Assembly: GCA_903907865.1 (NCBI GenBank)
Contig: CAIVPR010000149.1
Span: 1-64,000 of the forward strand
Direction of reading: 5' to 3'
Origin: an uncultured Acidobacteriia bacterium
Lineage (GTDB): Bacteria; Acidobacteriota; Terriglobia; Bryobacterales; Bryobacteraceae
Length of the DNA stretch: 64,000 nucleotides
Positions 32,692-49,297 of the stretch are shown in pieces. The position numbers and the translations under genes were made by a program. A model generated the notes under the pieces. That model searched no databases and was not told the origin of the DNA. It worked only from the letters and a program-made list of their open reading frames with translations. Position 1 is the first letter of the stretch, and each line of letters starts with the position of its first letter.

Positions 32692-34734
32692 ATGGGCGCG
32701 CTGAAGGTACGCGACATCGCCGAAGTCCTGAACGTCTCCGAACGCCACGCGCGCCGGGTCGCGTCCCCCACCGACTCGCCCGTCTGGACAGGCACCCGCA
32801 ACGTGGTCCAGACCGAACCCGGCAAGGTCGCCCTGTCCCTCACCCTGCCCGCCGGGCCCAACGGCAGCGAGGCCGACATTGCCGAGGCCCAGCGCCGCCT
32901 GCGCGCCATCGAACCGCTGCTCCGCCCCGAACGCTACCGAGTCCTCTGGGCCGAGCACAAGGGCAGCAAGACCAGCCTCATCGACTGGATCGCCACCGAA
33001 CACGACACAGCCCGTCGCACCATCTATAACTGGCTGGCCCTGTTCGAGGCGAAGGGCCTGCAGGGTCTCGTGCCCAAGGACCGCGCCGACAAGGGCAAGC
33101 CGCAGGTGCTCAACGACGCCGCGCTCAACTTCCTGCTCGCCTGCACCATCGCGGGCAGCTACAGCGTGCGTGACATCTACCGCGCCTACAACGAGGAACG
33201 CGCGTGGCGCGCAGCCCACCTCGGCCAGCCCATGGGCGCGCTCGAACGCAACAAGTATAAGAAGTACCTCGACGACGAGCTTCGCCTCCGGCCCGAAGCG
33301 CTGCTGCCCGAATGCAGCTACGCCACCATGACCCGCTGGTTCGACCGCATCCCCGAAGTGGTCCGCACCATGGCACGCGACGGCGACGAGGCCTTCCACA
33401 ACTCGCAGGAAATCCTGAGCTGGCGCGACATCGCCGCGGTGGATCCGCTCGAATACGTGGTCATGGACCATCGCCGACTCGACATCTTCTGTCTGATCGC
33501 CGACCGCGAGTCCGGCAAGCCGAAGTGGAAGCTCGCCCGGCCATGGCTCACCGCGGCCATCGACATGCGCACGCGCAAGTGGCTCGGCTGGGTCATCGTC
33601 GAGTCGCCGTCCAGCGACTCCATCGCCACCGTCCTCAAACAAGTCTTCATGGACCACGGCGTCCCGGTCGCCTGCTACTGGGACAACGGCAAGGACTTCC
33701 GCTGCGAGTGGCTCGAAGGCGGCCGCAAGGCCCGTCAGTCCACCGTGACCGTCGACGGCCTCAACCCGCAGTTCCGCGGCGTCCTCGACAGCCTCGGCAT
33801 CCGCGTCCACCATGCCATCGTCAAGCGCGCCCGCGCCAAGCTGATCGAGCCCAACTTCGGACGCACAGCCGACTTCGACCGCACCCTGGCGTGGTGGTGT
33901 GGCAACACGCCATCCGCGCGCCCTACCGAGCGCTTCGACAAGCTCTTGGGCCAACACGAAAAATGGCTCGAAGGCACCCGCGCCGAGGCAGCTTTCCCGA
34001 CCCTCGAAGAGGTCGCCATCCTCTACGACGGCTGCATGCGCGAACTCAACGAGCGCGAGCTCGAAGGCGACGGCATGGCGAAGATCAAGCACACCGGCGG
34101 CCGTGGCTGGATGTCTCCCAACGAGGCTTGGCAAAAGCTCATCCCGCGCATTGAGAAGCGCACCATCGGTCTCGAACTGCTGCACCTCTGCTTCATGAAG
34201 CGGAAGGAACTCACCGTCCGCAACGGCGAGGTCCAGACGACGTGGGGCGGAACCCCGCGCCATTACCGAATGCTCGGCAACTCCATCGGCCTCACTGCGC
34301 TGAACGGTCGCACCGTCGAATTCGCCTACGATCCGCTGGATTTACAGACCGCTGTCATCTACTACGAGTCGCGGCTGTTCTGCCTGGTCGAGTGCATCGA
34401 GTTGCGCAAGATGGGCGAGCGCGACTTCGTCCGAGACGAACGCGACCGCCGGGCCCAGCGCCGCAACACCAACACTTTTATCGAAGCCGTCCACGCCGCG
34501 GAGTATGTGCCGGACGCCTTCGAGCGCGCCCGTCGGCGCGACATCCAACCTCGGCCTGAACCGCAACGCCAGATCGTATCGGCGAAGGTTCCGGCCGCCC
34601 TGATCGAGGCCGCCGAGGCGGTCCGCGACAACCAGCCGGGCCCACTGCCCGAGCCGGACATCTTCTTGACAACCGTCCGCCCCGGTCCTGAACAGACCGC
34701 AACGGATGACGACGTGTTTACATTTTTCTCGTAA
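32692..34734 (+). CDS. Mu A-type DDE transposase
   Basis: 680 aa. An N-terminal MuA-type DNA-binding part (helical, with SLIDWIATEHDTARRTIYNW as one HTH) precedes the rve-type catalytic core. Catalytic Asp259 is in VVMDHRRLD, Asp331 in YWDNGKDF and Glu386 in KLIEPNFGR. A C-terminal Mu-type beta-barrel and tail follow. It should cut and join the prophage ends and carry out replicative transposition. The start at 32692 follows the previous gene by 3 bp. The MuB-type gene is next. Confidence 0.93.
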   Translation: MGALKVRDIAEVLNVSERHARRVASPTDSPVWTGTRNVVQTEPGKVALSLTLPAGPNGSEADIAEAQRRLRAIEPLLRPERYRVLWAEHKGSKTSLIDWIATEHDTARRTIYNWLALFEAKGLQGLVPKDRADKGKPQVLNDAALNFLLACTIAGSYSVRDIYRAYNEERAWRAAHLGQPMGALERNKYKKYLDDELRLRPEALLPECSYATMTRWFDRIPEVVRTMARDGDEAFHNSQEILSWRDIAAVDPLEYVVMDHRRLDIFCLIADRESGKPKWKLARPWLTAAIDMRTRKWLGWVIVESPSSDSIATVLKQVFMDHGVPVACYWDNGKDFRCEWLEGGRKARQSTVTVDGLNPQFRGVLDSLGIRVHHAIVKRARAKLIEPNFGRTADFDRTLAWWCGNTPSARPTERFDKLLGQHEKWLEGTRAEAAFPTLEEVAILYDGCMRELNERELEGDGMAKIKHTGGRGWMSPNEAWQKLIPRIEKRTIGLELLHLCFMKRKELTVRNGEVQTTWGGTPRHYRMLGNSIGLTALNGRTVEFAYDPLDLQTAVIYYESRLFCLVECIELRKMGERDFVRDERDRRAQRRNTNTFIEAVHAAEYVPDAFERARRRDIQPRPEPQRQIVSAKVPAALIEAAEAVRDNQPGPLPEPDIFLTTVRPGPEQTATDDDVFTFFS

Positions 34735-40479: not shown

Positions 40480-41031
40480 ATGCCAAAACCCCGCAGCGTC
40501 GATCAGCTTTCCTCCGAGGCCCGCAACCTTCTCTATGCGTGCTTCGCGGAGGGGTTGACCGCGGCGGAAACGACGGCGCGGCTGAAGGATACCCTCGACG
40601 TCGAACTGGCCGAACGGACCGTCGGTCGCCGGAAGGCGGAGTGGACGGAAGCGCAGGCGCGGCGGCAGCGCGGGCGCGAGCAACTGGAGGATCTAGTCTC
40701 CGCGAGCCGCAAGGGCAACGCGACCGCGTCGGAGATGCTGACCGCGCTGGCGATGCAGCAGCTCATGAACGATCCGGACGGGGTGATGGAGCTCGATCCC
40801 ATCGCGCTGCAGCAGACCAGCATCAAGGCCGAGCAAGTCAAGCTGCAGGCGCAGTCGCTGGCCCTGAAGGAACGCGAGATCGCGTTGAGCGAGAGCAAGT
40901 TCGCGCTGCTGAAGGCGGAAAGGGAACGCGCTTTGGCCGCGACTAGCGAACTGGAAAAGAAGGCCCAGTCGGGCCAGCAGTTGACCGCCGACGACATCCG
41001 GCGGATTCGGGAGGTCTATGGACTCGCTTAA
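40480..41031 (+). CDS. Small terminase-like protein (DUF3486, Mu gp27-type)
   Basis: 183 aa. N-terminal HTH (SVDQLSSEARNLLYACFAEG, LTAAETTARLKDTLDVELAE) followed by a long charged coiled coil (AEQVKLQAQSLALKEREIAL). This is the DUF3486 family, placed just before the large terminase in Mu-like phages and thought to recognise the packaging site. Confidence 0.8.
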   Translation: MPKPRSVDQLSSEARNLLYACFAEGLTAAETTARLKDTLDVELAERTVGRRKAEWTEAQARRQRGREQLEDLVSASRKGNATASEMLTALAMQQLMNDPDGVMELDPIALQQTSIKAEQVKLQAQSLALKEREIALSESKFALLKAERERALAATSELEKKAQSGQQLTADDIRRIREVYGLA

Positions 41032-41224
41032 GTTCGTCGCGGTGGAACACAACCGGCATAGGGTCCTGATCGCCGTCGACAACATTGAGATGATCGACTT
41101 CTCTTCACAGCGGACCTGCACCGTCCGGTTGATTAGCGGTCGCGAGGTGATCATCACCGACCACGGGTCGGCGGATCGCCTCCGGGCGCTGGGTGGGCCT
41201 ATCACAGAGGAGGGAAACCTCTAA
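41018..41224 (+). CDS. Hypothetical phage protein
   Basis: 68 aa, beta-rich (FVAVEHNRHRVLIAVDNIEM). It ends with ADRLRALGGP, encoded by a 28-bp stretch repeated (27/28) at 41784-41811 in the gene after the lysozyme. Overlaps the previous gene by 14 bp. Confidence 0.55.
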   Translation: MDSLKFVAVEHNRHRVLIAVDNIEMIDFSSQRTCTVRLISGREVIITDHGSADRLRALGGPITEEGNL

Positions 41225-41746
41225 ATGGCTGATTTCCTCACGGCCATGCGATTCGTCCAAGGCAACGAGGGCTCGAAGCTCTTGGACGATCCCAAGACTG
41301 GCGAGTACTCGCGCTTCGGAATCACGCTCGCCACGGCATCCGGCTACGGTCTCTGCGCGCCGGATGACCGCGACTTCATCCTGCATCTCACGCAGGAGAA
41401 GGCGGACGCGATCTATCTCGAACACTTCTGGACGCCCTTGCGGCTATCGGATGTGAACTCGCAGTCGGTCGCCACCAAGCTGCTGGACATGGGCGTCAAC
41501 ATGGGTTCCTACCGCGCGGTGCGGATCTGTCAGCAGGCGCTAAACGCAATCGTGGCTGGCGGGACGCTCAAAGAGGATGGCCAGATGGGCCCGGCGACGG
41601 TGAACACGATCAACTGCATCATCGGAGTCGAGGTGCTGTTGGAGCTGCGCGCCAAGTCGCTGGAGTTCTACCAGTCTCTCGTTAAGGCCTCGCCGGACAA
41701 GTACGCCAAGTACTGGGAGACGTGGAAGGCGAGGGCAACGAAGTGA
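41225..41746 (+). CDS. GH108-family phage lysozyme (endolysin)
   Basis: 173 aa. The N-terminal GH108 domain has a catalytic-type Glu15 in FVQGNEGSKLLDDP and FGITLATA; LLDMGVNMGSYRAVRICQQA and DGQMGPATVNTINC are the family's later helix and PG-binding part. It should cleave peptidoglycan at lysis. The usual EGG is EGS here. No signal peptide, so it depends on a holin; three small membrane proteins lie upstream. Confidence 0.82.
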   Translation: MADFLTAMRFVQGNEGSKLLDDPKTGEYSRFGITLATASGYGLCAPDDRDFILHLTQEKADAIYLEHFWTPLRLSDVNSQSVATKLLDMGVNMGSYRAVRICQQALNAIVAGGTLKEDGQMGPATVNTINCIIGVEVLLELRAKSLEFYQSLVKASPDKYAKYWETWKARATK

Positions 41747-42210
41747 CAGGCCAAGAGAGAACTCGTGACGGGGTCGCGTGGACGGATCGCCTCCGGGCGC
41801 TGGATGGGCCTGCAAAGGAGCTCATCCAAGTGACCGAAACTCACGAGGGGACAAAGGTCCCGGTCGCAAACGGGGCCGCGCGAATCAAGTGCTCCTGCGG
41901 ATGGCAAAGCACGGTCCGCGATGACGGTTACATGTTCGATCCCGGACACCCGTTGAATCTGGATATCGACAGGCAATTCCAGGAACACGCGTCGACGGCG
42001 CCCAGGAAACGCCCGAGTTCCTCCATGAGTTTCAGCCAGGCACTTGTTGCTCTGGAAGCCGGGAAGTCCGTGCAGCGGGCATCCTGGGAACAATGGCAGA
42101 GACTTCGGATGCAGGGTCCGGATATTCAGGAGTTCTACGGCGGCAGCTGGTCTCTTTGGCAGCCTCACCAAGTCGCGATCCTCGCGAATGACTGGAGGGT
42201 TGTCAGTTGA
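41743..42210 (+). CDS. Tad2-like (DUF2829, anti-Thoeris) domain protein
   Basis: 155 aa from GTG 41743 (GTGA overlap). Residues 94-155 read MSFSQALVALEAGKSVQRAS, W, then a gap region, and finish LWQPHQVAILANDWRVV. This is the signature of the DUF2829 family, now known for Thoeris anti-defence protein Tad2 (MxFxQALxxLxxGKxVxRxxW ... W.PxQxxxLAxDW.V). Tad2 sponges the cyclic-ADP-ribose-type signal of Thoeris defence. The N-terminal 93 residues, with a CSCGW segment, are extra. An internal ATG at 42025 could give the domain alone. Whether this copy binds a nucleotide is inference. Confidence 0.72.
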   Translation: MTGQERTRDGVAWTDRLRALDGPAKELIQVTETHEGTKVPVANGAARIKCSCGWQSTVRDDGYMFDPGHPLNLDIDRQFQEHASTAPRKRPSSSMSFSQALVALEAGKSVQRASWEQWQRLRMQGPDIQEFYGGSWSLWQPHQVAILANDWRVVS

Positions 42211-42409: not shown

Positions 42410-43759
42410 ATGGTCGTAATCAACCTGCAGGAATGGCAACGGAACTGGGTCGAGGATGATTCCCGATTCAAGATTCTTGCCGCGTCCAGGCAGGTCGGCA
42501 AGTCGTTCATCATGTCGCTCGACGACACGATGGAGTGTATCGAGAAGCCGTCAAATCTCGAGATTTTGCTTTCCGCGTCCGACAAGCAATCCTTGGAACT
42601 GGCTGAAAAGGTGAAGGCCCACGCCTACGCCATGAACTGTGCAACCGAGGGCAGCACGGACTTCTTCCAGGACACCTCCATCACCCTGCACAAGATCACT
42701 TTCCCAAATCGGTCGAGGGTGATCGCGGTGGCTGCCAACCCGGACACGGCACGCGGATTCAGCGGGAACATCTCGCTCGACGAGTACGCGATCCACAAGG
42801 ACCCGATTCCGATCTGGAAGGCCGCGATGGGTATCGCCATGCGTGGCTTCAAGTTGCGCGTCGCCAGTACGTTCAAGGGGAAAAAGGGGAAATTTTTTGA
42901 AGTTGCGAAGGAAGTCGGACTCGCCGAAGGCGTTGCGCCCAGCCCGAATCCCATCAAGTCCGGCGTGTGGTCGGGCCATTGGTGCAACATCCACATGGCC
43001 GACCAGCAGGGGTTGACGGACCCGCAGGGCAACCGCCTCGACATCGAAGGCCTCCGCGCGGCGGTTGGCGACGAGGACGTCTGGGCAGAGGAGTTTTGCA
43101 ACATCCCGACCGACTCCGCGGCGGAGTTCATTTCCAAGGACTTGGTCATGTCCTGCGAGTCGCCCGCGGCATCCATCGAATGGGATGGCGAAACCCGGCC
43201 CGACCTCTACTTCGGCTTCGACGTCGCGCGCAAACGCGACTTGTCCGTGATCTGGATCGTCGAGCGGCTCGAAGACGGGACCTGCCTGACGCGCGGCGTG
43301 ATCCGCATGCTGCGGGTGCCGTTCGCCGAGCAAGAGCGGATCGCGCGCGAAGTCGCCAAGTCCTGCGCCCGCGGCTGCATCGACGCAACCGGGATCGGCG
43401 CGCAACTCGCCGAGAATCTGCGGTTTGCCAGCGCCGGGCAGGTCGAGCCCGTCCAGTTCAACGCCTCGAACAAAGAGACGATGGCCGTCCAGATGAAGAC
43501 AATGATGGAATCGCATAAATTGCTGATTCCAGAGGACGTCAGCATCCGGCGCTCGATCCAGGCGGTGAAGCAATACGTCGGCGCGACCGGCGGTGCCCGC
43601 TTCGACGCCGACCGGACCGCATCCGGACACGCCGACGAATTCTGGGCCTGCGCGATGGCCCTCTCGGCAGCCCAGACTTCCGCGAGCTACGTGCCCGCGT
43701 CGGAAGGCGGTTTGAAGTCGGATTCCGCGCTCAAAGGCATGTCGGGGAGGAAGTTCTAA
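42410..43759 (+). CDS. Terminase large subunit (Mu gp28-type)
   Basis: 449 aa. Walker A variant ASRQVGKS (25-32), Walker B ISLDE (121-125, Asp124/Glu125), then a C-terminal RuvC-like nuclease beginning YFGFDVARKRDLSVIWIVE with acidic residues in CIDATGIG and SGHADEFWA. It should pump and cut phage DNA during headful packaging. It lies between the small terminase and portal. Confidence 0.9.
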   Translation: MVVINLQEWQRNWVEDDSRFKILAASRQVGKSFIMSLDDTMECIEKPSNLEILLSASDKQSLELAEKVKAHAYAMNCATEGSTDFFQDTSITLHKITFPNRSRVIAVAANPDTARGFSGNISLDEYAIHKDPIPIWKAAMGIAMRGFKLRVASTFKGKKGKFFEVAKEVGLAEGVAPSPNPIKSGVWSGHWCNIHMADQQGLTDPQGNRLDIEGLRAAVGDEDVWAEEFCNIPTDSAAEFISKDLVMSCESPAASIEWDGETRPDLYFGFDVARKRDLSVIWIVERLEDGTCLTRGVIRMLRVPFAEQERIAREVAKSCARGCIDATGIGAQLAENLRFASAGQVEPVQFNASNKETMAVQMKTMMESHKLLIPEDVSIRRSIQAVKQYVGATGGARFDADRTASGHADEFWACAMALSAAQTSASYVPASEGGLKSDSALKGMSGRKF

Positions 43760-45898
43760 ATGATCTCTCTCAACATCGGCCAGCTCGATAGAGGCCTCTT
43801 CGATATATCCCCCGTCAACACAGCACCTGTCAACGTGCCGGAGACCCGCAAAGAGGCTACCACCGAATTCGGAGTCTCCGGCACACCGATACTGGGTGGG
43901 TTCCTGCGGGAACTGGGTGAGTACAACCCCGAGCTCGTCGGCCACTCCGCAATCCTCCGCTACGAGGAAATGCGTCGAAGCGACGGGCAGGTCGCGGCCA
44001 CGCTGTCCGCTATGAAACTCCCGATCCGGGGCGCGGAATGGTCGGTCACGGCACCGGATGACCCGACGCCAGCCGAACAGGAGGCCGCCGACTTCGTGCA
44101 GGACTGCCTCTTCAACGAGTGCGATTTCGACGGCATCGTCGAGAACGCGCTGCTGATGCTCGACTTCGGCTTCGCCGCGCACGAGGACGTTTTCTACATT
44201 TCGGGTGATCAAATCCGCCTCCGCAAGTGCGCGCCTCGCCTGCCGGTGACCTGCTACCGCTGGGTGACGAACAACGACGGACCACCCGATCTCATCCAGA
44301 TGGGCTACCAAGGATCGTCCTACAAGACGGTCCAGATCCCAGGCAACAAGCTCGCCCTGTTCACCCTCGGACAGGAGGGCGACAACTACACCGGTAGGAG
44401 CTTGTGCCGCCCCATGTACAAGCACTGGTACATGAAGACGGCGTTGGAGATCGTCGAAGCCATCGCCTCCGAACGGAACGGCATGGGCATCCCGGTCATC
44501 ACGATGGCCGCGAACGCCACGTCGAACGACAGGCGCGTCGCCGAGCAATGGCTCCAGTCGCTGTCCGTAAGCGAAAAAACCGGGCTGCTGAATCCCCCTG
44601 GTTGGACGTTCGAACTGGTCGGGGTGAAGGGGCAGGTGCACAGCGCGCTGCCGACCATCGAGTACCACGACAGCAAGATCACCAAGGCCGCGCTGGCCCA
44701 GTTTATGGACTTGGGCGGCGGGCACAGCGGCGGGAATCGGGCGCTCGGACAGACGATGTCCGACTTCTTTTACCTGTCATTGCAGGCGCTGGCGTCGTCG
44801 ATTGCACGGGTCCTCACAGAGACCACCTGCAAACGCTTGTGCGACTTGAACTTCGCCGGATTGACCCGGTATCCGAAGATCAGCGTGCAAAAGATCCTGA
44901 GCACGAAGATCGAAACGGCGGTCGACGCGCTCACCAAGCTGGCGGCCGGCACGGTCAACGTGATCCAGCCGGATGACGATTTGGAAGCGTGGATCCGGCA
45001 GGATCTCGGCGCGCCTCCGGCAAGCAAGCCCCGTCCGCGTCCGGCATCGGGCGGCGAGGGCGGCGCGCCGAAGGCCGGTCCCGATCTTTCCGCGAGCGAA
45101 GCGGCTCCTCCGGCGTCCGCGCCGAAGCTGTCGCGCGAACCGCGTGGAGTTGAAAAATTCATGGCGCTCTCGGCCATCGTGGGCACCCTCGATCAGGGCC
45201 AGCAGGACATCGCGGCTGCACTTCGCGCCGCGCGGCCGCGGCTGCAAAAGGAGATCGTCCAGAAGCTCATGAGCCGTCCGGCAGCCGAAGCCCACCGGGT
45301 TTCGATTGGTCTGGATGAAGTTCTGGTGACTGCGGTTCGATCCATCATGGATGGGATCTCGGACTATGGGCACAAGTCGGTCACAGAGGAACGCGCACGG
45401 CAACTCCGCGCCGGTGGCCAGGTTCCCACCGCGGCCACGGTCCGCGCCTCGGCAGCCGGAAAAAAACAGGACCTCGGCGTCTACGCGGACGGCATCGTTT
45501 CGGAGTTCAGCAACAATCTGCAGGCGCGCGCGGCGAATGTAGTGCTCGACCAGCGGCGGACGTCCAAGTCCACCGGGCAGCAGATCCTCGACGCCGAGGA
45601 GACACTCGACGAGCAAAGCGACGGCTGGATCGACGGCATGTCGTACAAGGGTGCCAACGAGGCCTTCGCCGATGGGCGTCAGGACGGGTACGAGGCATAT
45701 GCCGAGGAGATCGGCGAAGTACTCTACTCGGCATTGCTCGATCCGAACACATGCGACCAGTGTTCGAGCGCGGACGGGGAGTCCGGCGCTACTCCCGACG
45801 ACATCACTGCCGTGCCCAACCCGGACTGCGACGGCGGCGATAAGTGCCGTTGCGTCCATGTCTTCGTCTTCGCGGACGAAGGGAAGGCGGTCAAGTAG
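43760..45898 (+). CDS. Portal protein fused to MuF minor head domain
   Basis: 712 aa. The first ~430 residues are a DUF935 (Mu gp29-type) portal: LRYEEMRRSDGQVAATLSAM, WSVTAPDDPTPAEQEAADFV and LTRYPKIS-type phrases. A Pro/Ala linker (about 415-455) follows. The C-terminal ~250 residues end in YSALLDPNTCDQCSSADGES and CDGGDKCRCVHVFVF, the MuF (Mu F-like, capsid morphogenesis) Cys-rich end. In Mu the portal and MuF are separate genes; here they are one polypeptide. Confidence 0.88.
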   Translation: MISLNIGQLDRGLFDISPVNTAPVNVPETRKEATTEFGVSGTPILGGFLRELGEYNPELVGHSAILRYEEMRRSDGQVAATLSAMKLPIRGAEWSVTAPDDPTPAEQEAADFVQDCLFNECDFDGIVENALLMLDFGFAAHEDVFYISGDQIRLRKCAPRLPVTCYRWVTNNDGPPDLIQMGYQGSSYKTVQIPGNKLALFTLGQEGDNYTGRSLCRPMYKHWYMKTALEIVEAIASERNGMGIPVITMAANATSNDRRVAEQWLQSLSVSEKTGLLNPPGWTFELVGVKGQVHSALPTIEYHDSKITKAALAQFMDLGGGHSGGNRALGQTMSDFFYLSLQALASSIARVLTETTCKRLCDLNFAGLTRYPKISVQKILSTKIETAVDALTKLAAGTVNVIQPDDDLEAWIRQDLGAPPASKPRPRPASGGEGGAPKAGPDLSASEAAPPASAPKLSREPRGVEKFMALSAIVGTLDQGQQDIAAALRAARPRLQKEIVQKLMSRPAAEAHRVSIGLDEVLVTAVRSIMDGISDYGHKSVTEERARQLRAGGQVPTAATVRASAAGKKQDLGVYADGIVSEFSNNLQARAANVVLDQRRTSKSTGQQILDAEETLDEQSDGWIDGMSYKGANEAFADGRQDGYEAYAEEIGEVLYSALLDPNTCDQCSSADGESGATPDDITAVPNPDCDGGDKCRCVHVFVFADEGKAVK

Positions 45899-48800
45899 AT
45901 GTTTCGTAAGTTGGCATTCGCGTCGGTCTTTGTAGTGGCGTCCGTGTGCGGGCAAACCTGCCCGTCCGGCCTAACTCCGGTAGTAGATACGATATATGCG
46001 CCCGGAGTCGGCAATGTGTCAAACTTATTCAACGGGACAGTAACAGCTAACATCGTGCTGCCGGTCGGAGTATCCGGGGTAACATACGGAAAGATCCCTG
46101 TTAAGGTCAATGTAACTAGCGGCGCTCTCTCCGTTTGTATTGCTCCTAACTCCACGGCATCAATTTCCGGCACGACTTATGCTGTCCACTACGAGCATCA
46201 CGACGCGAACGGGACGGCGGCGTGGAACGAGACCTGGTACGTGACCGCGTCGAGCACGGCGCTGAAGATCAACCCGCTGCGGGTCATCGCCCCGCTTACA
46301 CCCGGCATGCAGGTCCCGACAGGTCCGGTGGGGCCCACCGGTGCGCAGGGTCCGACAGGCCCGCAAGGCGTGACCGGATCGACCGGGCCTCAGGCCGTGC
46401 TGCCGACCACCACGCCTACCGCGTGGTTCGGCTTGGACAGCGAGAGCACCACGGCTGGCACGGGCGCGGCCTATCCCGACTACCTGACGCTCGGCGGCTA
46501 CACGGAAGTGCTCGGCGGCGTGCCTGGCACGCGGGTCTGCGGGTTTGCCTCGTCGACGATCACATCGACCTTCGCGAGCGGCGCGTTGAACAACACCGCA
46601 CTGGTGTGGGGATCCACGAACGACGTCGCGATAGACGGGGAGACGCCGGCACAAGTAGTTGCCTGCCTGCAGACCATCGCGACGGCGATTCACGCGGCGG
46701 GCGGGCGGATTGTGGTCGGGACCATGATCTCGCGCGGCGGCGTGCTCTGGTCCACAATCGCCGCGGTGAACGCAGCGATAAAGGCCGCGGCGTCCAGCTG
46801 GGACGGCATCGCCGATTTTGCGGCGTCACCATACCTCGGCTGCTCGGCTGGCGGCGTGAACGGTGGCGGCTATTGCACGGCGGACCAGAATACGATCTGG
46901 TACGCGGGTGACAACACCCACCTGACGCAACGGGCCAAACAACTGCTGATCGCGCCTGTCGCGGCTCCGTTCTTTCCGGGCAACTGGTCCACCCGTGGAC
47001 CGTACCAGGCCCCGAACCCACCTTGCCCCATTGCGACGCTGATCCCTTTCAACATCGCCACCAACCAGCAGGGATGCGATCTCAATTTCAGCTACGACCA
47101 AGCCAACGGACGGCTCTTCGTGGGTACGACGTCGAGCCCTGGCACGAACTTCTACGCCAACTGGTCTTGCTCGGTTGGCAATTGCTTTGGGTTCCATTCG
47201 ACTTCGTCAACGAGCGGGAACTCCGGGATATTCATCGGGCACGCTAATACGCCTGTGTTCGGACTGTTGCATTTGAATGACTTCCGCGCCAGCATCACGA
47301 ATTCGGTGGGCGCGGCGGTGCAGACCTTCGACGTGCTGAATGGTCATATTGCTATTCCGCGCGGTGGCAGCTATGTGTCGGGCCGTGTAGCTCCGCGCAG
47401 TTCCTCCGCGTTCGACCTAACCTGTGTGACGGGCAACTGTTTCGGGATTCTCGATTCAGTTGGTGCAGTCAACGTCGGTTTCAAAATCTACGTGAATGGG
47501 TCGCTGATAGGCTATCCGGGCTACTGGGATGCTGGCTCTTCTGTCTGGCGTATTGCGGGCATCGGTGGGGCTGACGGAACTTACCATGATTTCGCGAATG
47601 GCATTTTCGGATTGGCATCCGGGTGGCTGCTCAAGACGCCGTCTCTGCAAATAACGGGTCTGTCCTCGGTAATGACAAAGGTCGGGGCGACGGGGCTGGT
47701 ACAAGCCGCGACACCTGGAACCGACTATCTGGCTCCATTCGGGGCCCAGTCCGCCGGATCAGTTTACGCGGCGGCGGCAGGAACGGGGCTGCCCACTTGG
47801 CGCGCGATCCTGGCGACGGACCTGCCCGGCTCGATCACGAGCAACACGAGCGGCAACGCAGCAACGGCGACGGCATTAGCCTCGACGCCGACCGGGTGTC
47901 CGGCTGGGCAGGTCGCCCGCTTGATCGACGCCGCTGGCAATCTGACCTGCACGGCGGTCACATCGTCCTACATCCCCGCATCCCAGACGTTTACGACGCC
48001 CACGTTTGTGGGTGGCGCTGTCAATACCTGTACGTCGGGCAATTGTTTTATCGACCTGAACGCGCCGAGCGGATCTAACTCAGGACTCCGCATCATGGAG
48101 GGCGGCGTAATCAAGGCCTACGTCTACCATCCCGCGGGTACGAACACGCTCTTTTTCGGGGATGCAGCCGGGAGTTCGGCGTTGACGCTGGACTATGGGA
48201 ACGGTTGGATCACGGCGGCTAGCGGGTACGCGTACAAGGGGACGGGGTCCCTATTGACTGGCCTCAATGCCACGAACATCAATACCGGGCACTTGGACTA
48301 TACCCTCGCGGGTACGTTTGGTCTGACCGGCGTGATCTGTGGCACTGGCACCCGCAGCGCGAACTGTGTCGCAGGGACCGACTATGCTGCGCCGACCCAA
48401 GGGGTGCTCGGTGCGATTCCATCCGTCGACGGCGCTGGCGGCTGGTCGACAAGCTACGCCCGATCTGGATCCGGCAGCGTGGCAATGACAAACTCGCCGA
48501 CGTTTGTGACGCCCAATCTTGGCACGCCATCGGCAGTAATTTTGACAAATGCTACTCAGTTGCCGCTCGCGACTGGAGTCACTGGCACGCTGCCAAATGC
48601 CAATCTGGCCGGTTCTGGCACCACGACGATCAACGGCACAGCTTGCGCGGTGGGTGGTACCTGCACGGTATCGGCTGGAGGCTACAACCCGTTTTGTGTC
48701 GTGTTCCGCGGCCCGGTCAGCGTGACCTTCCTTGATTTTCCGAACTGTGCTGTGGAGTCCGGCACAACTGCGAACTACACCAGTTCCCGCACTTTGACCG

Positions 48801-49297
48801 CGCCGAACGGGGTGTCGATGGTCTGCGGTTGGGAGGATGCGCCGGGCGGAACAGTGAACGTTTTCACCAGCTATACAACGACGGCTGGGTACAACCAAGA
48901 TCCGCGATTCGCCGGGACAGCCTACGCGCAAGATGACGGCACCGGAAAGCGCTGGCGGTGCGACCTGCCCGCCGCTGGCACGTATGAGATCAGCCTTTCC
49001 TTCGCCGATCAGCGAGGCAATGCCTTTCAGGCCCGAGCCACGTTGCTGGATAACACCACGTCGGTTTGGACGGTATCGGTGGACGGCGCAAGCGGATATT
49101 CGGTGGTCGATGCGACAGGCAAGCTCTGGCCTTCGAGCGGGCTGCCAGGCGTCAATGGCTGGGCCAACACAGGGCATGGCGGCATTCCTCGCGCGGCAAC
49201 ATTCAGTTCGACGACGATGCGGCTGCGGATCGGCGACGTGTCGGTGAGCTCCGGCTACACCCACGTCACGGCGTTCATCGTCAGGAGGATTTCGTGA
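45899..49297 (+). CDS. Collagen-like / SGNH-hydrolase fibre protein with signal peptide
   Basis: 1132 aa. Signal-peptide-like N-terminus (1-19, ending VCGQ). Residues 23-135 form a beta domain; a collagen-like Gly-x-y run spans 142-164. The region 171-360 looks like an SGNH/GDSL hydrolase: DSES at 180-183, GSTND at 238-242 and DNTH at 338-341. Repeated SGNCFG-type beta segments follow to about residue 930, then a globular C-terminus. It reads as a receptor-binding fibre that deacetylates a surface glycan, but it sits in the head operon between portal and protease, and a signal peptide is odd for a virion protein. Its first 300 bp are more AT-rich than neighbours. Confidence 0.7.
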   Translation: MFRKLAFASVFVVASVCGQTCPSGLTPVVDTIYAPGVGNVSNLFNGTVTANIVLPVGVSGVTYGKIPVKVNVTSGALSVCIAPNSTASISGTTYAVHYEHHDANGTAAWNETWYVTASSTALKINPLRVIAPLTPGMQVPTGPVGPTGAQGPTGPQGVTGSTGPQAVLPTTTPTAWFGLDSESTTAGTGAAYPDYLTLGGYTEVLGGVPGTRVCGFASSTITSTFASGALNNTALVWGSTNDVAIDGETPAQVVACLQTIATAIHAAGGRIVVGTMISRGGVLWSTIAAVNAAIKAAASSWDGIADFAASPYLGCSAGGVNGGGYCTADQNTIWYAGDNTHLTQRAKQLLIAPVAAPFFPGNWSTRGPYQAPNPPCPIATLIPFNIATNQQGCDLNFSYDQANGRLFVGTTSSPGTNFYANWSCSVGNCFGFHSTSSTSGNSGIFIGHANTPVFGLLHLNDFRASITNSVGAAVQTFDVLNGHIAIPRGGSYVSGRVAPRSSSAFDLTCVTGNCFGILDSVGAVNVGFKIYVNGSLIGYPGYWDAGSSVWRIAGIGGADGTYHDFANGIFGLASGWLLKTPSLQITGLSSVMTKVGATGLVQAATPGTDYLAPFGAQSAGSVYAAAAGTGLPTWRAILATDLPGSITSNTSGNAATATALASTPTGCPAGQVARLIDAAGNLTCTAVTSSYIPASQTFTTPTFVGGAVNTCTSGNCFIDLNAPSGSNSGLRIMEGGVIKAYVYHPAGTNTLFFGDAAGSSALTLDYGNGWITAASGYAYKGTGSLLTGLNATNINTGHLDYTLAGTFGLTGVICGTGTRSANCVAGTDYAAPTQGVLGAIPSVDGAGGWSTSYARSGSGSVAMTNSPTFVTPNLGTPSAVILTNATQLPLATGVTGTLPNANLAGSGTTTINGTACAVGGTCTVSAGGYNPFCVVFRGPVSVTFLDFPNCAVESGTTANYTSSRTLTAPNGVSMVCGWEDAPGGTVNVFTSYTTTAGYNQDPRFAGTAYAQDDGTGKRWRCDLPAAGTYEISLSFADQRGNAFQARATLLDNTTSVWTVSVDGASGYSVVDATGKLWPSSGLPGVNGWANTGHGGIPRAATFSSTTMRLRIGDVSVSSGYTHVTAFIVRRIS

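Follow-up and report, generated by a model that had tools for sequence, protein, structure and literature searches.

A 155-aa protein encoded in a Mu-like prophage of an uncultured Acidobacteriia bacterium carries at its C-terminus a short, divergent Tad2-like domain (PF11195, formerly DUF2829) that has the predicted fold of Tad2, scores higher against other short forms than against long ones, has lost conserved residues of the known pocket loops, and lies in a gene cassette inserted between the two terminase genes. These features are directly supported. The protein – here P0001 – was found in the window, by which we mean the whole stretch of DNA analysed (64,000 nucleotides of contig CAIVPR010000149.1, assembly GCA_903907865.1). 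We consider P0001 to be, on balance, probably an accessory (cargo) phage protein in which this domain, joined to an orphan Cys/His segment, would serve a binding role in counter-defence or host takeover, and not through the known Tad2 pockets.

The fusion gene and its prophage context

The features of the window that bear on P0001 are as follows:

32692..34734, +, Mu-type DDE transposase (DDE_2)
40480..41031, +, homologue of the gene directly preceding TerL in related prophages (small-terminase position; tblastn down to 4e-16)
41018..41224, +, 68-aa ORF, first gene of a four-gene insertion
41225..41746, +, lysozyme, Glyco_hydro_108 (GH108), with a weak PG_binding_3 match
41743..42210, +, gene for P0001 (Tad2-like fusion, 155 aa); starts with a GTG that overlaps the stop codon of the lysozyme gene
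41743..42024, +, N-terminal extension of P0001, about 93 residues, with CSCGW and later histidines in PGHP and QEH
42025..42207 (stop to 42210), +, short-form Tad2-like domain (PF11195), by profile, structure and short-form score
42207..42407, +, Zn-ribbon-like ORF of 66 aa, with two CxxC pairs; its TTG start overlaps the P0001 stop codon and has GGAGGG upstream
42410..43759, +, large terminase (Terminase_6N/6C)
43760..45898, +, Mu-type portal protein (Portal_Mu, 1.7e-49)

A preliminary description of this DNA, made from its letters, placed the gene beside a lysozyme in a Mu-like prophage, and both statements are borne out: the P0001 gene directly follows that of the GH108 lysozyme, and the prophage has a Mu-type DDE transposase, an AAA protein, a Mu Gam-like gene, a Mu-type portal, a head protease and a head protein. 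Between the portal and head protease genes, at 45899-49297 (+), is a 1132-aa protein with a signal-peptide-like N-terminus, collagen-like GPTG repeats and a weak tail-fibre match.

The four genes between the small and large terminases (the 68-aa ORF, the lysozyme, P0001 and the Zn-ribbon-like ORF, the last with no family match) are specific to the window. A related TerL is present in 48 of 399 genomes of the class and PF11195 in three only; peptide patterns yielded no TerL relatives in genome contigs or IMG/VR. The product of 40480-41031 matches upstream of TerL in six relatives by tblastn, and in most of the relatives read the pre-TerL gene lies directly against TerL; none of these relatives has the lysozyme, fusion or Zn-ribbon genes before TerL. 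The presence of the inserted genes here, and their absence from the pre-TerL gap of relatives, is thus a pattern expected of cargo.

The P0001 start is a GTG at 41743, preceded by GAGGG and overlapping the stop of the lysozyme gene. Coding scores over residues 1-93 are best in the +1 frame (0.07, the other five frames being at most -0.22, a weak margin) and also favour the + frame over the Tad2 part. With margins this small, the case for the extension as coding sequence is carried chiefly by its open frame, by the context of the start and by the domain fused to it; to all appearances, it is real coding sequence. Translation of the domain alone from an ATG at 42025 is possible and not favoured, since AGGA lies about 17 bases upstream of it.

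A C-terminal domain with a predicted Tad2 fold

The DUF2829/Tad2 signature recognized in the preliminary description holds up in profile and model alike. PF11195 matches the end of P0001 (aa 95-154, within its last 61 residues) with 38.5 bits (E 1.8e-9; curated cut-off 25 bits) over all of its 73 positions (1-73), and this is the sole PF11195 match within the 7.5 Mb host assembly. An AlphaFold2 model, built without templates from an alignment of 32 sequences, has pLDDT of 90-97 over residues 91-155. With this model Foldseek returned Tad2 chains for all of its top 20 matches (probability 1.00), and VIA-align 2 placed 61-64 residues onto the solved structures of SPO1, Myroides, Spt and Hgm Tad2/AcrIIA7 (Z scores 10.4-12.4, rmsd 0.8-1.3 Å); the next row after the Tad2 chains, a neck protein of phage 812, has Z 5.7. 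The alignment behind the model included Tad2-like sequences, so the fold match depends in part on the sequence match. Residues F97, A100, G107, R112, W115, W139, L147, A148, D150 and W151 of the fold core are retained, and, as modelled, the C-terminus of P0001 is a true Tad2-fold domain. A tight hairpin alone takes the place of the middle insertion in the model, and strands 2 and 3 have no helix between them; the Tad2 homotetramer forms via helices 1 and 2 and strand 2 (PMC12043709).

Loss of conserved pocket-loop residues

In a review of the Tad2 structures (PMC12043709), two protomers together form the gcADPR pocket: one gives loops b1-b2 and b3-b4 along with strand b4, the other loops b1-b2 and b4-a3 along with helix a3. 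Cyclic dinucleotides are held, in that account, by the insertion between b2 and b5. We took the pocket regions from this review and judged pocket loss by loops and conservation, not by geometry. Among 24 long-form domains from viral contigs, the b1-b2 loop has an invariant N and G, the b4-a3 region has an invariant D, and an S is present in 23, the conservation of N-G being inflated by a query containing GWNGRGMF with which the set was fetched. GWNGK is present in each of the Tad2 sequences of SPO1, Myroides and Hgm. P0001 has replacements at all four positions (N116E, G117Q, S142H and D145A, canonical residue first) and lacks 27 columns of the middle insertion that are each occupied in over 60% of the long-form relatives, confirming the shortened middle loop that had been noticed earlier. 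A stand-alone relative, L010, is also without N-G, yet keeps the S and D.

The preliminary description went on to suggest a variant signal sponge, and proposed that loss of the ligand-pocket residues in a model would count against it. Such a loss is seen in part: the Tad2 fold is kept, and the conserved pocket-loop residues are gone. Because these residues are replaced and the insertion that holds cyclic dinucleotides is missing, the sponge claim is not supported, and to judge from the residues P0001 is unlikely to be a gcADPR sponge via the known pocket.

Short and fused forms in other phages

We searched for short forms with a gapped DNA pattern (G-K-x-[IV]-x-R-x-x-W, 25-35 residues, A-[DN]-D-W), which matched 13 viral contigs, 12 of them with a matching open frame. 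Many of the short forms found in this way stand alone, at 60-90 aa, and score above the PF11195 cut-off. In two places short Tad2-like ORFs lie adjacent or near to each other on the same viral contig (L018:1384-1858 and L015:7581-8855), which suggests local duplication. The P0001 domain scores 49.3 bits against a short-form profile of only seven sequences and 29.8 bits against a long-form profile that includes the SPO1, Myroides and Hgm Tad2 proteins, P0001 itself being in neither. In BFVD, a DUF2829 protein of 60 residues from Klebsiella phage KpS110 (A0A2K9VAK2) matches P0001 over 61 columns at 1.3 Å. From this protein and the short stand-alone forms, the short loop is seen to be a known type.

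Fusions are likewise widespread, and the earlier statement that Tad2 proteins are usually stand-alone is too strong. The Tad2-like domain is C-terminal in longer proteins of phrog_872, phrog_1048 and phrog_30130; a search of IMG/VR with a phrog_872-type protein of Acidovorax phage AP1 gave 120 relatives, and 52 of the 80 loci kept match both modules; and BFVD holds many Tad2-like proteins of 130-270 residues. Genes flanking the fused relatives in viral contigs have no consistent shared family. Fused and shortened Tad2-like domains are both already common in phages, and neither oddity is unique to P0001.

An orphan N-terminal extension

The Cys-containing N-terminus of 93 residues, described from the sequence as new, is indeed fused to the Tad2-fold domain and was not found elsewhere. 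The extension has no relatives among plasmids, phages or PDB sequences, and its weak matches in 400 genomes of the phylum were not convincing once read. For P0001 as a whole, a peptide-pattern search of IMG/VR gave no close relatives; two weak genome matches (L007 and L008) were rejected as antisense to other ORFs. The extension has no confident fold in the model of P0001 (pLDDT about 38-62) and is unusable when folded alone (pLDDT 40), and we discounted PDB structural rows over residues 35-85, with Z up to 3.1. A common origin with the N-terminal module of phrog_872 was also rejected (hhalign probability 0.2%, E 0.32). From its residue pattern, CSCGW together with the two later histidines could form a metal (zinc) site.

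Possible Thoeris components of the host

Three TIR proteins of the host match ThsB_TIR. One of these, a 379-aa ThsB-like TIR protein (L027:248-1387, -), matches the PADLOC ThsB model PDLC00434 almost end to end (E 9e-84); its gene is at the start of contig C159, beside a beta-lactamase-like gene. Searches of the host with STALD and ThsA_Macro, as well as their controls, were empty, so that ThsA was not found and its absence is weak as evidence. The proposed check of the host for ThsA and ThsB thus gave one ThsB-like candidate gene at a contig edge and, in these searches, no ThsA. A SIR2_2 protein of the host aligns with ThsA models in their SIR2 half only, and no SMODS CD-NTase was found in the host. 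Contig C164 of the host encodes a 609-aa SIR2_2 protein (L112:496-2322, -) with a match to PDC-S65, a candidate defence family in PADLOC (E 2e-189).

A proposed role for P0001 and its alternatives

The history we propose is that P0001 arrived with the lysozyme in the four-gene cassette between the small and large terminases and would be translated late by coupling. Its C-terminal domain is a minimal, divergent member of the PF11195 fold family, probably with a remodelled surface, and the extension may bind a metal ion. As a binding domain, it would use that surface to sequester a small ligand or block a protein, in counter-defence or host takeover, and we infer that it does not soak up gcADPR or cyclic dinucleotides via the known Tad2 pockets. 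In the literature searched we found no function for any short-form Tad2-like protein, and the counter-defence role is accordingly drawn from the family name alone. Alternatively, the domain may serve as an adaptor, either structural or regulatory.

A working sponge, in which the short domain forms a tetramer and blocks Thoeris by capturing gcADPR, hisADPR or another ADP-ribose signal of this kind, would fit the Tad2 fold, the PF11195 match above threshold and the ThsB-like TIR protein of the host. The ligands of Tad2 also vary, with SPO1 Tad2 binding gcADPR and the Myroides protein hisADPR (PMC13299392). Against these points are the replacement of the pocket-loop N, G, S and D, the low score against the profile that includes proven sponges and – a weaker argument, given the empty controls – the failure to find ThsA, and we regard such a sponge as improbable.

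Inhibition of a protein is about equally doubtful. As has been claimed for the homologous AcrIIA7, which carries DUF2829 (PMC6739104), P0001 might target a defence protein of the host, such as a nuclease, in place of a small ligand; the solved AcrIIA7 structure aligns to the P0001 model with Z 11.2, and the extension could add a second contact surface. However, its interaction partner is not known and, P0001 being an orphan, a conserved surface is not measurable. Moreover, the AcrIIA7 chain has also been deposited as HgmTad2 with bound nucleotides, so protein inhibition need not be the main role of the domain.

Least likely of these is a part in the virion or in lysis, with P0001 as a small protein made late that aids assembly, or lysis beside the lysozyme, as the late position, the translational coupling to the lysozyme and a weak match of residues 86-155 (41998-42207) to the phage 812 neck protein (8qkh_s, Z 5.7, rmsd 4.1 Å) might suggest, but P0001 is absent from relatives that have this terminase module in common, Z scores below 8 are common among unrelated folds, and the fused relatives have no consistent structural neighbours.

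Whichever role the cargo protein has, the PF11195 label ('Thoeris anti-defense 2-like') does not alone imply a Thoeris sponge. The many phage proteins with a shortened domain and without the conserved pocket loops form a defined set in which to try other ligands: if they bind something, they would make a further class of phage sponge or inhibitor, and if they bind nothing, automatic anti-Thoeris labels should go. That short-form domains, joined here to a putative metal-binding extension, are a separate functional class whose remodelled pocket captures another immune signal, or else a host protein, is a speculative and rather unlikely extension of this reading.

Comparison with known Tad2-like proteins

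SPO1 Tad2 (Gp34.65) and Myroides ModTad2 agree with P0001 in fold and in domain order, with 61-64 residues aligned at rmsd 0.8-1.1 Å in the best rows, and all three share a core of the Arg and Trp of strand 1, the Trp of strand 4 and a terminal A-x-D-W. P0001 differs in that the GWNGK and S-x-x-D loops are replaced, the middle insertion is absent and an N-terminal extension is added. HgmTad2/AcrIIA7 also has the fold of P0001 (34% identity at the Z score given above), but with a long insertion and GWNGK, both of which P0001 lacks.

Like P0001, phrog_872 and related fused phage proteins (phiAH14a gp64 and UIS65504 of Acidovorax phage AP1) begin with an N-terminal module, theirs being about 80 residues long, and end in a Tad2-like domain. 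Their module (TKxIxAxPMTRxxYNxxRGW...) is unrelated to the P0001 extension, and their Tad2 domain, unlike that of P0001, is mostly of the long form. The length class of the P0001 domain is that of the short-form DUF2829 proteins (L015, L022, L023 and L026 of IMG/VR, KpS110 A0A2K9VAK2 and phrog_6670), which like P0001 have R-x-[SA]-W without N-G and no middle insertion. Unlike P0001, these are stand-alone or have other short flanks, and the residue before L-x-A-x-D-W, an A in P0001, is a D in five of seven short forms.
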